IMG/VR virus record: IMGVR_UViG_3300046733_001533 | Coordinates: 1 to 26,755 of that record | Direction: 5' to 3' (one strand) | DNA from: a virus | Length of the DNA: 26,755 bases | In this document: positions 10,868 through 24,607 of the stretch, one piece after another | How the letters are laid out: each line of letters opens with the position of its first letter | How positions within the stretch are numbered: position 1 is the first letter of the stretch | Position numbers and translations under genes: made by a program | Notes under the pieces: generated by a model | Told to the model about the DNA's origin: nothing | What the model saw: only the letters and a program-made list of their open reading frames with translations | Databases searched by the model: none

Positions 10868-13651
10868 TTATTTTATTAAGTAGTCCTGATCATCTTCAGT
10901 TTCTATATCTTCAAGAATTTCAGTGTTCAAGCGAAGATTCTCTATGATTGATAGATCAATTAATGCTCCTAAATTATTAAAAATATTTGAATTATTAAAT
11001 ACGGCTTCTTCAAATATAGTATTCAGATATGGAGTGATTGGATTTTGATCTAAGAATTTTATATTCTCTAAGTAATCTTCTCTTGCAAAAGCATTTCTAT
11101 CCTTTGTTGATCTATGAAGAAGATGAAGAGTTGAAAGTACCATTCTTTGATACGCAGGATCATTAGGTCCAAGATCAAATTCAAACGCCTCAATAATCAA
11201 TTCAAGGAATCTTAAGTCTCCTGTTAACCATCCAGGTTGAAACAGTGGCATATGATAAGCATCGGCATCAGCATTTAATATCGAAGGCGGTGTCAATCCT
11301 TCCATCCATTTCAAATCAGTCAAAGGATCGTTAGTACGATAATTTCCTTTATATTGCGTTGGATCAAATGTATTCTTATATTGTCTTAATGCCTGATCAA
11401 ATTCAACCTTTGGGCCGATCCAATTATTATCAACATTAAGAATATATAAAACAGCAGCGAAGAATTTTAAGCCTGCGGGGTGAACCATTCTTATAAACTC
11501 GTTCTCCCACTGATTAGAAGATAATGCTACATTCACAACATACGAAAACTCTTGCCAGAAATCTCCATCGTGTAATTTATTCACATCAGAAGCAAAGCTT
11601 CGACGATCATTGTAACTTCCAACATCTTTAGCGCTATATACGTGTTGCACTTGATTGCCTGAAGTAAATAAATCTGATCTTAAATCACCCCACATAACCT
11701 TTTGTTTATCATTGGCAAATCCACTAGTATATGTCGCTTCAATTCTAATCGTGGGCCCAAATCCGGATTCATCCAGTGCTGGTTCATCAAATGTCCAAAA
11801 ACTATCAACGGTATGACCTGTTAGAAGATTGAGCGTATATGCTTGATCATTCTTCTCAATCAGTGTAGAACCATTAATAAAACTTCCATCTTGATTATCG
11901 AATTCTATTTGATAAAAGTTATAGGCAACAGCCAAATAATAATTATAAACTTGTAACACTTGAGCTGGTGTTAATGATGTATTATAATATTGAATATTCG
12001 ACATCACGCCTTTGAAAAAATATCTATTTCCAGTCCATCTACCAATATTGATAGGCGTTTGATCAGTAATATTCAAGTGTACACTCGTGTCACCTGAAAT
12101 AATAGTCTCCCAATCATTACCATCTACAGATACTTTAACATATCCGCCCTTTCTAGCTTTCTTACCCGTCATTGCAACGGTATAGTATTTGCCATTAGAT
12201 GGTACACTAGTATTATTCGCAAATATAAACCCATATTCATGTACAGGCGTATTTACAAATGCGTTTAATGTGGAATAATCGTTGAACCATTCTATATCAG
12301 CAGTAAAAACATCTTCACCTGTATCTTCTGAATAGCATAAAACTACACCCTCATCCCCAAAAACCTGACTCTCTATCGTGTATCTTCTTGCGCCTTTAAA
12401 TACCCATTTATTTCCATCGTAATAAATAACTGCGCATGGCCAATTATTTGGAGTGCCAAAGCCAGTATTTTCATCGAATAAGTAAGTATTATGTATGAAT
12501 GTTGTTCCATTAGTATAAAATACATTTGTATCTACATAAAATGGTTTACCGTTATACAAACCAGTGTTACTAGCGTAAGCGGTGTTTTTATAATATATAC
12601 CACTTAAATCTCCATAGAAATTTGTCGTAGTTTTAAAGTCTGAAACACTTATATTATCGCCAGACTCCTTAATCATAGGATTACCTATGTTATTCCACCA
12701 CCGACCAACTTTTCCATTTACTGCTTTTATGTATAATTCGTGTGCTTCAAACGGACTACCTTTTTCAGTTGCGCTGAATATATTTTGTCTACGATACCCA
12801 GAACTATCTTCTCTTCTTATCCTTGCAACAATCGTGTGTTCATCCGTAATAGGAATATCAGTTCCTCTATTTCCTATACTAATATAATCGTTGCTACCAT
12901 CAAATCTTATATCTTGTGTTTCAGATTGATATTCAAGACCATTTTCAAATGTACCGACCCAAGGATAATCAGAAATTGATATCCAATTAGTATTTGTAGT
13001 ATTTTGTTTAGAATCAAAACCCATTACCATACCGTCAGTAATGTTATCATAATCAAATTCTTTATCTACATTTACATAATTAGAAAGCTGCCCTTCTCCA
13101 AGTACAGTGTTAGAATCATCTTTGATTTGAAAAATTGTATTAAGCGATTCATTTGTCAATTTGCCAGATAGAAGATTGCCGACTAATTGCACCTCATCTT
13201 TAATATTAGAAGGTTCCCAATCGCCTTCAGAAAGTTTAAATAATTTTTCTTTAGGGTATGTCACAGTTGCGTATTCATCAAAGAAAATACGAAAGAACGC
13301 GTAAAGGCTATCTTCAGAACCTCGTATTGAATAGAATTTTACTATCTTCTTATATAGAGAAACTTGATCGAGCACCTTTGAGTTTGGTACATTCTTCGCA
13401 ATTTCGCTTCCGATGCTATCTAAGTACTTTGCTGAAACACGATCAATGTCGTGATTATCAACAATAAGATTTATTTCACGCGAAGGAAGCCCATTCGTAT
13501 TCAAATAATTGTAATAATCTTCAAGCAAATGAATAAGGCCGGAAGCCTTTTCTACAAGCTGCTCAGGTATGAGAGTGCTTGTACGAGTTGTCTCTCGATT
13601 ATGGTGTTCAGTGGCAGAGGTCGAGGCAGATGCAATTGCGATGTGAGACAT
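10868..13651 (-). CDS. 7: Baseplate wedge protein gp7-like, with inserted LamG/lectin-like domain
   Basis: A 927-residue protein two bases downstream of the gp6 stop. The N-terminus (residues 25-150: TLIPEQLVEKASGLIHLLED ... FYSIRGSEDSLYAFFRIFFD) and the C-terminal third (residues 665-800: DGDFWQEFSYVVNV, MVHPAGLKFFA) are what I know from gp7-like wedge proteins of marine T4-type phages. T4 gp7 (1032 aa) is the large protein linking wedge parts. Residues about 235-345 and 480-575 look like two halves of a concanavalin/LamG fold (FDGSNDYISIG; then SNIQYYNTSLTPAQVLQVYN). Between them, residues about 345-480 form a further small domain (GLYNGKPFYVD, VIYYDGNKWVFKG). The lectin-like part probably binds sugar or decorates the baseplate; this is inferred from fold-type motifs only. 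Confidence 0.75.
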   Translation of the reverse strand: MSHIAIASASTSATEHHNRETTRTSTLIPEQLVEKASGLIHLLEDYYNYLNTNGLPSREINLIVDNHDIDRVSAKYLDSIGSEIAKNVPNSKVLDQVSLYKKIVKFYSIRGSEDSLYAFFRIFFDEYATVTYPKEKLFKLSEGDWEPSNIKDEVQLVGNLLSGKLTNESLNTIFQIKDDSNTVLGEGQLSNYVNVDKEFDYDNITDGMVMGFDSKQNTTNTNWISISDYPWVGTFENGLEYQSETQDIRFDGSNDYISIGNRGTDIPITDEHTIVARIRREDSSGYRRQNIFSATEKGSPFEAHELYIKAVNGKVGRWWNNIGNPMIKESGDNISVSDFKTTTNFYGDLSGIYYKNTAYASNTGLYNGKPFYVDTNVFYTNGTTFIHNTYLFDENTGFGTPNNWPCAVIYYDGNKWVFKGARRYTIESQVFGDEGVVLCYSEDTGEDVFTADIEWFNDYSTLNAFVNTPVHEYGFIFANNTSVPSNGKYYTVAMTGKKARKGGYVKVSVDGNDWETIISGDTSVHLNITDQTPINIGRWTGNRYFFKGVMSNIQYYNTSLTPAQVLQVYNYYLAVAYNFYQIEFDNQDGSFINGSTLIEKNDQAYTLNLLTGHTVDSFWTFDEPALDESGFGPTIRIEATYTSGFANDKQKVMWGDLRSDLFTSGNQVQHVYSAKDVGSYNDRRSFASDVNKLHDGDFWQEFSYVVNVALSSNQWENEFIRMVHPAGLKFFAAVLYILNVDNNWIGPKVEFDQALRQYKNTFDPTQYKGNYRTNDPLTDLKWMEGLTPPSILNADADAYHMPLFQPGWLTGDLRFLELIIEAFEFDLGPNDPAYQRMVLSTLHLLHRSTKDRNAFAREDYLENIKFLDQNPITPYLNTIFEEAVFNNSNIFNNLGALIDLSIIENLRLNTEILEDIETEDDQDYLIK

Positions 13652-22439: not shown

Positions 22440-23027
22440 ATGGCAGTTTCATACATAGATAGATTACAAGCCCAGGCGTACAAGGCTGGAGTTGCAAAGA
22501 ATAGTGAGCAGTCTTTGGATTGGTTTAAACGCCAATTACAGGGCATGAAAACTATCAATCGTCAAAATCTTTTGAAGGATGATAATTTTAAGGCAAGAAC
22601 TCGTCCATTGTCTGGTCGTATGTTTCATTTTTTCTATGATCCCAAACACAAGAAAACACTTCCTTATTACGATAGATTCCCTTTAATTTTTATGGTAGAA
22701 AAGGCAAAAGGTGGTTTTTATGGATTAAACTTACACTATTTACCCCATAAACAACGCGCTCTTTTCTTTGATAGACTTACAGAGTATTCTACAAATAAAA
22801 AATACGATTTAACTACTCGCTTAAGACTATCGTATAATCTTTTAAAAGGTGCTTCTAAATTGAAGATGTTTGGCCCTTGTTTCAAACATTATTTAAGCGA
22901 GCATGTAAGATCACGTATGGTTGAGGTACCTGCCAGCGAATGGGAAACCGTTTTGTTTATGCCAACTGAAAACTTTAAGAAAAATAATAAGAATCAGGTT
23001 TGGTCTGATTCAAGGAAAGCAATCTAA
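22440..23027 (+). CDS. Conserved-looking 195-aa phage protein, function unknown
   Basis: A 195-residue basic protein in a tight operon with the tube-like gene (stop and next start overlap as TAATG). The middle has a distinctive block: MFHFFYDPKHKKTLPYYDRF, PLIFMVEKAKGGFYGLNLHY, LPHKQRALFFDRL. I associate this block with proteins found next to head-completion and tail genes in several large myophages, sometimes labelled DNA end protector (gp2), but I cannot confirm that name from the sequence. Aromatic, proline and histidine richness fits a compact virion or DNA-binding protein. T4 gp2 is longer (274 aa), and in T4 gene 2 lies next to gene 4, which is weak positional support. Confidence 0.75.
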   Translation: MAVSYIDRLQAQAYKAGVAKNSEQSLDWFKRQLQGMKTINRQNLLKDDNFKARTRPLSGRMFHFFYDPKHKKTLPYYDRFPLIFMVEKAKGGFYGLNLHYLPHKQRALFFDRLTEYSTNKKYDLTTRLRLSYNLLKGASKLKMFGPCFKHYLSEHVRSRMVEVPASEWETVLFMPTENFKKNNKNQVWSDSRKAI

Positions 23028-23710
23028 TGGGATTATTTACAGACATAGCATCAGCAGTTTCACCAGGATCAATCGATAGTTTTAAATCGACAATAGGTAA
23101 GCGTGGTGGATTAGCAAAAACAAATAGATTTGCGGTGTTTATGTCACCACCAGACCAGTCTTTGCTTAATATCGATTTACAAGACATTGCGATTAGCGCG
23201 ATCTCTGGCAATTTCAATGCTAAGTCATTAATAAATGACCCTCGCGATATTGGCTTATTGTGCGAAAGCTGTTCTATACCTGGAAGACAAATACAGACTA
23301 TGGAGCATTCGCACTTTAGGCAAGCGGTTAAAGTACCAAACAGCTATATTAATGAAGACGTGACCTTTTCGTTTCATTTAACAAATGACTATTATATGAA
23401 AAAGATGTTTGACAAATGGACTTCTTTAGTCATTAACCCTGACACTTTTAAAGTGAATTATGATTCTGTGTATAAAAGAGATGTTACAATACAGCAGCTA
23501 AACGAAAAAGATGTACCTGTCTATGGTATAACACTTAGAAACGCTTATCCCGTGACAGCAAATTCGATTGATTTGAATAATTCAAGTGAGAACACCACGC
23601 AGAAATTGTCAATCACTATGACGTATGAAGACTTTGTACCAGAAGGAGGATTGTCCTCATCTCTTTCTGGAATTAAAAACGCGATTGGAGGAATAACCAG
23701 ATTATTATAA
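23027..23710 (+). CDS. Tail-tube-like protein (gp19/gp54 family)
   Basis: A 227-residue protein with the tail-tube pattern: KTNRFAVFMSPP near residue 30, then LCESCSIPGRQIQTMEH, VTFSFHLTNDYYMKKMFDKW, a short loop (YDSVYKRDVTIQQLNEKDVP) and the C-terminal strand LSITMTYEDFVPEG. The tail after it (LSSSLSGIKNAIGGITRLL) resembles the extra end of T4 gp54. T4 gp19 has 163 aa and gp54 320 aa, so length does not decide. Its place in the hub assembly cluster beside the gp26-like and gp29-like genes favours a tube-initiator (gp54) role over the main tube subunit. An AAGGA about 10 nt before the ATG is a weak ribosome site. Confidence 0.8.
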   Translation: MGLFTDIASAVSPGSIDSFKSTIGKRGGLAKTNRFAVFMSPPDQSLLNIDLQDIAISAISGNFNAKSLINDPRDIGLLCESCSIPGRQIQTMEHSHFRQAVKVPNSYINEDVTFSFHLTNDYYMKKMFDKWTSLVINPDTFKVNYDSVYKRDVTIQQLNEKDVPVYGITLRNAYPVTANSIDLNNSSENTTQKLSITMTYEDFVPEGGLSSSLSGIKNAIGGITRLL

Positions 23711-23714
23711 TACT

Positions 23715-24422
23715 ATGCCATTACCAAAACTAGAAGCAAATAAATACCCGGCTGTAATACCATCAACAAATAAGACGATCGAGTTCCGTCCATTCCTCGT
23801 AAAAGAGGAAAAGATTCTTATGATTGCTCAAGAATCGAAGGATCCTTCGCAAATTTTTGAAGCGATGCAAGACATCATTAAAGCATGCACATTTGATAGT
23901 GTCGATGCAAGTGAATTAACCACGTATGATTTAGAATATCTTTTTCTTCAATTAAGAGCGAAGTCTGTAGGCGAAACTGCTAAGATTAAAATTAAATGTG
24001 AAGAGTGTGACGAGTATAACGAAGTTTCTATTAATTTACTTGATGCTAAGGTTGAATTTCCAGAAGATAAAGTAGATGAAAAGATTCAGCTAAGTGATAC
24101 CGTAGGAATTATTATGCGACCAATCACAATCGCTAAATCAGAATTTCTTTCAAAAAAAGGAGATGACGATACAGATGCACTTATTCACACAGTTATCGCT
24201 AGTATTGAATCAATATATGACGATAATGGTGTTTACCAAACGGATGATACATCTGAAGACGATTTAAAAGATTTTGTTGAGTCATTGTCTCGTGTACATT
24301 TAGAACTAATTCAAAAATACCTATCTGCGCAGCCTAAACTTAAGTTAAAAGTAGAATTTAAATGCAGCAAATGCGGACATGACAACGTTAGAATACTAGA
24401 AGGATTAGAGTCTTTTTTCTAA
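23715..24422 (+). CDS. 26: Baseplate hub assembly protein, gp26-like (T4_baseplate family)
   Basis: A 235-residue protein beginning FRPFLVKEEKILMIAQE at residues 24-40, followed by a helical part (SQIFEAMQDIIKACTF, LEYLFLQLRAKSVGE), as in the T4 baseplate-assembly (gp26-like) family. Two CxxC pairs (C95/C98 and C217/C220) suggest one zinc ribbon assembled from distant strands, each followed by a similar beta hairpin. These proteins help build the hub but are not major virion parts. The gene ends with TCT TTT TTC TAA, where the last bases are a -1 slippery heptamer; a fraction of ribosomes should continue into the -1 frame to 24607, giving a 297-aa product. The next gene is the tape measure. 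Confidence 0.82.
   Translation: MPLPKLEANKYPAVIPSTNKTIEFRPFLVKEEKILMIAQESKDPSQIFEAMQDIIKACTFDSVDASELTTYDLEYLFLQLRAKSVGETAKIKIKCEECDEYNEVSINLLDAKVEFPEDKVDEKIQLSDTVGIIMRPITIAKSEFLSKKGDDDTDALIHTVIASIESIYDDNGVYQTDDTSEDDLKDFVESLSRVHLELIQKYLSAQPKLKLKVEFKCSKCGHDNVRILEGLESFF
24413..24419 (+). promoter_or_regulatory. Canonical -1 slippery heptamer T TTT TTC
   Basis: Zero-frame codons are TCT TTT TTC followed by the TAA stop at 24420-24422. The heptamer fits X XXY YYZ exactly (X=Y=T, Z=C) in the right phase, and is followed after 5 nt by the start of a 13-bp stem. Both parts are as expected for programmed -1 frameshifting. Confidence 0.8.
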
Positions 24423-24607
24423 TCTGCCTTTCCCATGACTCTTTAGCCAACCACTATCAAACAAATTTTTCTATGATGCAACATCACCAATATAGTTTAA
24501 CAGAATTAGATAATATGATACCATGGGAAAGGCAAATATATGTATCACTCTTGCAAGATTACATTAAAAAAGAAAACGAACGCGTAAAGAATAATAGAAA
24601 TGGATAA
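24419..24607 (+). CDS. -1 frame extension of the gp26-like protein (gp51/GT-type), 62 codons
   Basis: From the slip site the -1 frame is open through CTA ATC TGC CTT ... to a TAA at 24605-24607. The peptide (LICLSHDSLANHYQTNFS, MMQHHQYSLTELDNMIPWER, QIYVSLLQDYIKKENERVK, NNRNG) looks like real protein: amphipathic helices, then a charged tail, and the MIPWERQIYVSLL segment resembles the C-terminal domain of frameshifted tail-assembly chaperones. It overlaps the tape-measure start by 8 nt. Two ATGs at 24473 and 24476 could also start a 43-45-aa free protein, but neither has a ribosome site, and the 18 open codons before them favour the fusion. In T4 the neighbouring function is gp51, a hub assembly factor; the equivalence is inference. 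Confidence 0.75.
   Translation, partial: LICLSHDSLANHYQTNFSMMQHHQYSLTELDNMIPWERQIYVSLLQDYIKKENERVKNNRNG
24425..24534 (+). promoter_or_regulatory. Long-range 13-bp stem downstream of slippery site (frameshift stimulator)
   Basis: TGCCTTTCCCATG (24425-24437) is exactly complementary to CATGGGAAAGGCA (24522-24534), enclosing an 84-nt loop. Both arms are inside the -1 frame coding sequence (encoding CLSH and PWERQ). Confidence 0.78.

Follow-up and report, generated by a model that had tools for sequence, protein, structure and literature searches.

A conserved candidate −1 frameshift site at the end of a gp26-type tail gene points to gp51 as the C-terminal domain of a longer product in relatives of phage T4

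The closest described systems are the frameshifted tail-assembly chaperones of phages lambda (G/GT), P2 (E/E+E′) and HK97 (gp13), in which a short form and a frameshift-extended form with a shared N-terminus come from a gene ahead of the tape measure gene. The extended lambda protein connects the tape measure with the tube subunits, and a 2016 review names T4 as the exception ('except T4') to a tail frameshift that is otherwise conserved among long-tailed phages (PMC5009743). T4 gp51 is reported to be absent from the phage particle (PMC3004832), and the gp51 of cyanophages and vibriophages is treated as a separate or shortened gene (PMC3037559), also in databases. A first, sequence-only reading of the DNA studied here proposed a programmed frameshift in a gp26-type gene and knew of no such description for the T4-type gp26/gp51 genes, in agreement with the wording of the review (PMC5009743). 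We likewise found no earlier description in the open-access literature (subscription papers such as Xu et al., 2004 lay outside the search), and no phage or gene that we looked for is mentioned in the main text of the PRFect paper.

The window, that is, the whole stretch of 26,755 nucleotides that was analysed (positions 1 to 26,755 of IMG/VR virus record IMGVR_UViG_3300046733_001533), contains one such gene just upstream of a probable tape measure gene (Table 1), with a predicted arrangement of shared-N-terminus short and long forms like that of lambda, P2 and HK97. Its 3′ end reads GAG TCT TTT TTC TAA, with TCT at 24411-24413, so that the slippery heptamer and stop are exactly, to the base, as first read. 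The lengths given then for the zero-frame and frameshifted products also match the ORF coordinates, as does a −1 frame that stays open for 62 codons (sense codons 24419-24604, stop 24605-24607) and reaches 8 nt into the next gene, which starts with the ATG at 24600. In P2 ribosomes shift by −1 on a U-run heptamer close to the 3′ end of a small tail gene that immediately precedes the tape measure gene; its E′ also overlaps the tape measure gene T by 8 nt, and its slip site, T TTT TTG, is exactly that of two relatives of the window, phiM9 and RL2RES. There are differences too: the gp26-type protein is larger than that of P2 (235 vs 91 aa) and has cysteine-pair motifs, the site in the window is followed by a covarying long-range stem, and the slip sites of lambda and HK97 are unlike the one found here.

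Table 1. Features of the gp26-type locus and its neighbours, with positions in the window.
Feature	Position	Strand	Basis
DNA end protector, gp2-like	22440-23027		
Tail-tube family protein	23027..23710	+	phrog_3629 E 1.7e-36, phrog_45 E 9e-33; synteny in L088, L089, L099
gp26-type zero-frame ORF, short product 235 aa	23715..24422	+	PF12322, phrog_150, AlphaFold2
Slippery heptamer T TTT TTC, in phase, abutting the zero-frame stop	24413..24419	+	Sequence; NNT TTT TTN in 235 loci
Zero-frame stop TAA	24420..24422	+	Sequence
−1 extension, 62 codons and stop, gp51 domain; predicted long product 297 aa	24419..24607	+	phrog_634, phrog_150, pN/pS
Putative stem, 5′ arm TGCCTTTCCCATG	24425..24437	+	5 nt after the heptamer; folding, covariation
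Putative stem, 3′ arm CATGGGAAAGGCA, encoding P-W-E-R-Q in the −1 frame	24522..24534	+	Folding, three pairs with compensatory changes
Probable tape measure protein, 587 aa	24600..26363	+	Position and composition; overlaps the −1 ORF by 8 nt

Profile searches place both parts of the gene in one family. The short product matches PF12322 (E 1.1e-60, 205 bits against a cut-off of 24.5) and phrog_150, 'baseplate hub' (E 8.2e-66, profile positions 5-232 of 282), and the −1 extension matches phrog_634, 'baseplate hub assembly catalyst', that is, gp51 (E 1.3e-27), as well as the C-terminal end of phrog_150 (E 2e-8). By these profiles (PF12322, phrog_150 and phrog_634) the gene belongs to the T4 gp26/gp51 protein family. 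In AlphaFold2 models, for which the two parts were folded as separate chains, the short product has a mean pLDDT of 93.9 and the extension one of 79.9, with helices at 11-24 and 37-63. In the expression scheme that we propose, most ribosomes would stop at the TAA that follows T TTT TTC, releasing the short gp26-type protein, while a fraction of them, held up by the downstream stem, would slip back by one nucleotide on U UUU UUC and go on to add the helical gp51 domain of 62 residues, giving a long protein that shares its first 235 residues with the short one. Both the synthesis of this fusion and its ratio to the short form are what we infer from the arrangement of the gene.

The heptamer alone is weak evidence, since 37 in-phase X XXY YYZ sites occur in the genes of this AT-rich window, and it was dropped as a stand-alone argument. 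The comparison with relatives carries more. Among the first 80 that were collected (43-100% identical over the best segment) all 80 have a T-ending codon, TTT TTY and a zero-frame stop, and in every one an open −1 frame encodes the same protein, so that both the heptamer and the open frame, which the sequence-only reading had proposed to look for at the same place in related phages, are kept. With P-SSM2-, KVP40-, phiM9- and T4-type searches and isolate genomes added to these, NNT TTT TTN is found in phase at the end of gp26 in 235 related loci, which form 125, 65, 43 and 27 groups at 95, 80, 65 and 50% amino acid identity; the loci without it are 15 of T4 type and two from Ackermannviridae. 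Between the heptamer and the zero-frame stop lie 0, 1 or 8 codons, all complete −1 extensions (231/231) are 58-73 codons long, and a PWER-type motif sits at the same codon of the extension in 58 of 65 representatives. The +1 frame after the site is usually closed within 8 codons.

Could the protein sequence account for the site? The residue before the two phenylalanines may be Ser (from two codon families), Asp, Asn, Ala or Tyr, yet the third base of its codon is T without exception, and the first Phe codon is TTT in all representatives, against a background elsewhere in the same genes of 42-47% T-ending Ser codons and 51-59% TTT among Phe codons. Elsewhere in gp26 the slip-site pattern occurs in only 4 of 14,338 codon triplets. 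From background codon use, the chance of the site in the 27 representatives, treated as independent, would be about 10^-15; since the representatives have ancestry in common, this figure is overstated and means no more than 'very small'. These comparisons indicate that the bases of the slip site are conserved beyond what the protein requires, with its synonymous positions constrained, and that the position and conservation of the heptamer are not due to chance.

A homopolymer at the break might suggest a sequencing or assembly error, or else a decayed gene. The same break occurs, however, at the same codon in 235 loci including isolate genomes of several phage families, an identical site is present in three contigs from other metagenomes (L005-L007), and the extension is under purifying selection. 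The comparative data thus refute this explanation, the probability of which we consider negligible.

The selection on the extension acts in the −1 frame only. In pairwise comparisons pN/pS is 0.16 in this frame, compared with 1.4 and 3.4 in the other two, so that the codon-conservation analysis proposed earlier bears out a coding role. The early part of the extension behaves in the same way (codons 3-20 alone, 0.18 in the −1 frame), and by this measure purifying selection includes a stretch that precedes any start codon. This bears directly on whether gp51 could be a small protein of its own, translated through re-initiation (coupled translation) once ribosomes have reached the gp26 stop, with the slippery run being incidental. 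An ATG does overlap the gp26 stop (TAATG or TGATG) in 13 of 65 representatives, and many annotated records draw gp51 as a CDS of its own. On the other side, ATG, GTG and TTG are all absent from the first 20 codons of the conserved extension in the window and 30 other representatives (31/65, about half), and in Desulfovibrio phage 7757 from the whole extension; translation of the conserved stretch in such cases cannot be put down to re-initiation at an ordinary start codon. The synonymous positions of the heptamer are conserved as well, and T4 gp51 has both domains in one chain. Taken together, re-initiation appears very improbable as the general explanation, even if a short stand-alone gp51 may also be made in those 13 lineages with a stop-overlapping ATG. 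The comparisons support instead that the 'gp51' part belongs to the long product, as its C-terminal domain, and is no short gene of its own.

In the two Ackermannviridae loci a −1 overlapping ORF with an MPWH-type motif is found (EP75, L093, 2570-2750; Vibrio phage 1.244.A, L095, 2495-2690), and the gp26 of both lacks a canonical slippery heptamer. One of the two has a TAATG overlap, and another recoding site or re-initiation may operate there.

The sequence-only reading had also noted a stable stem 5 nt after the heptamer. A stem is indeed predicted at this position, but it is long-range and not a simple hairpin: its two arms form 13 bp with no mismatch and enclose a loop of 84 nt. The fold energy in the window is −26.9 kcal/mol versus −15.1 kcal/mol in synonymous shuffles, which preserve the −1 protein (z −3.3, p 0.01). 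Against such shuffles z falls below −2 in 28 of the 42 representatives folded (mean −2.8), with a significant fold absent in some distant lineages among them. In an ungapped alignment of 54 sequences the 13-bp stem contains 47 double-change cells, as compared with 25 after column shuffling and 7-23 in versions slid along the alignment. The compensatory changes are confined to three pairs (GC/CG/UG, CG/UA and CG/UA). In the P-SSM2 group a local hairpin takes the place of the long-range stem. From these predictions, the stem is a putative stimulator and the exact stimulator differs by lineage. An upstream Shine-Dalgarno-like signal, an optional further stimulator, shows a slight excess over the synonymous expectation across representatives (Wilcoxon p 3e-4), a weak group trend, and none in the window (p 0.62). 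A search of Rfam with the locus gave no match.

We also observed that residue 5 of the extension (Gly/Cys/Ser vs Ala/Ser) varies together with the Gln or Glu that follows PWER, apparently because their two codons pair in the RNA stem; this may be a case in which the structure of the RNA shapes the protein sequence.

The stem also matters for another possible origin of the fused frames, transcriptional slippage on the T run, in which a U would be added to part of the mRNA. The run is six T or longer, reaching eight in some relatives, which makes the idea worth considering. At most sites, though, it stops at six T, with C or G as the next base, and a run of six is short for polymerase slippage; moreover, the stem lies at the spacing expected for ribosomal stimulation, about 5-9 nt, and is conserved and covarying. 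Slippage of the polymerase is, in our estimate, slightly less probable still than re-initiation. Judged on the conserved site, the selection on the extension and the predicted stem together, it is very probable indeed that the gene is expressed via programmed −1 ribosomal frameshifting at this conserved site.

How does this relate to T4 itself? PF12322 is matched from end to end by both T4 gp26 (208 aa, E 8.8e-64) and T4 gp51 (249 aa, E 3.9e-52). T4 gp51 in addition matches phrog_150 (13-280) and phrog_634, and a profile built from marine −1 extensions finds its C-terminus (E 5.6e-11). It runs through the junction in a single frame, while T4 gp26 ends in ...GLKEFFELL, compared with ...GLESFF in the short product. 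By these matches T4 gp26 and gp51 are paralogues, gp26 corresponding to the short product and gp51 to the frameshifted long one. T4 has two paralogous genes, divergently transcribed and with no frameshift, in contrast to the one probably frameshifting gene of the window. A frameshift is not needed in T4 and its near relatives, because the two genes give both products.

Twenty isolate genomes were compared in this respect: T4, avDM4 and KARL-1 have two PF12322 genes each, and the other 17 have one. The frameshift site is also present in phages that their records place alongside T4 in Straboviridae, namely the KVP40-type phage V09, Aeromonas phage Ahp1 and Vibrio phage EniLVp02. A tree of the shared domain resolves the frameshift genes, T4 gp26 and T4 gp51 into one group each, but it has no root and long branches are joined in it, so that by itself it does not show the ancestral state. 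Read most simply, the distribution has one frameshifting gene as the older and widespread condition, with its products split into genes 26 and 51 by a duplication in the T4 lineage. We think that this is probably what happened; the reverse order, with two genes older than the frameshift, appears less likely. It would explain why T4 is called the exception to tail-gene frameshifting, as two genes replace the frameshift there, and T4 would then be an exception in gene layout only and not in function. The data suggest that relatives of T4, including cyanophages, pelagiphages, vibriophages and rhizobiophages, use a tail frameshift which T4 replaced by two genes, and this offers a natural comparison between frameshifting and gene duplication as routes to two related proteins.

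What would the two products do, then? We propose that the short and long forms are a tail-assembly (tape-measure) chaperone pair, the counterpart in the T4 superfamily of the frameshifted chaperones described above. This appears likely to us by analogy, and the claim is that the pair works like the lambda and P2 chaperones, not that it is a member of their family. If it is true, the essential gp51 of T4 would be the long, rarer chaperone form. Comparison of the gp26 and extension profiles with P2 E, P2 E′ and the HK97 chaperones gave no score above those of shuffles, and no known chaperone family is among the matches of the Pfam and PHROGs scan. Neither a sequence search of solved structures (no credible match) nor a PDB fold search (nothing significant) identified a relative. 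The HK97 chaperone 2ob9 is among the weak PDB fold matches of gp26, with E-values of 0.66 and 1.8 and probabilities of 0.21 and 0.30, which are not significant; it is the only listed gp26 match with a probability above 0.2.

Alternatively, the frameshift is real but its products serve baseplate-hub assembly only, which would be consistent with the placement of T4 gp26 and gp51 in hub assembly (PMC3004832) and with the lack of detected homology to known tail-assembly chaperones. Against this restriction stand the position of the gene between the tail-tube and probable tape-measure genes with two products sharing an N-terminus, as in lambda and P2, and the overlap, of identical length, of E′ with T in P2. 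In T4 the hub proteins include the tape measure gp29 itself (PMC3004832), so the hub and chaperone roles need not conflict. An exclusively hub-related role seems rather unlikely to us, and we prefer the chaperone pair.

By eye, an SL.EL..M..E-like motif can be seen in the extensions of the P2/HK97 proteins and of the gp26-type gene, with profile scores not above shuffles. Clear predicted-structure matches of the gp26 fold were found in many distant phages, among them Bacillus phage SP-15, Campylobacter phage CP220, large phages and a siphovirus, some of these matches lying within proteins of 400-670 aa.

The upstream tail-tube family protein is labelled gp54, tail tube initiator, in several relatives. 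The downstream protein has no Pfam or NCBIfam family match and matches only an unnamed PHROG, but its charged, coil-like N-terminus is followed by long hydrophobic segments and its length is similar to that of annotated T4 gp29, so it is probably the tape measure.

In cyanophages and vibriophages, what is annotated as 'gp51 baseplate hub assembly catalyst' is the same sequence as the −1 extension. Cyanophage gp51 has been reported as 'missing ~200 aa', which would be explained if the gp51 domain is a frameshift extension. Among the public records examined none has a joined CDS for these genes, and several omit gp51. The gp51 frame is omitted in cyanophage records (S-WAM1, ACG-2014j, ACG-2014b, P-RSM1, S-H9-1), among them L003, L254, L255, L256 and L257, while records of other phages start gp51 at varying internal codons, thereby losing conserved residues. 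Probably, gp51 is drawn wrongly or is missing in many public genomes.

Two further observations concern genes on the minus strand of the window. The product of 17216-18484 matches phrog_430, 'baseplate hub subunit and tail lysozyme', with 422 aa as compared with a profile length of 868, and the lysozyme part may be missing or encoded elsewhere. In the 927-aa protein encoded at 10868-13651, the matches at the start are to baseplate wedge and head-closure families and those around residues 673-735 to very large virion structural proteins, which suggests that it is a mosaic.
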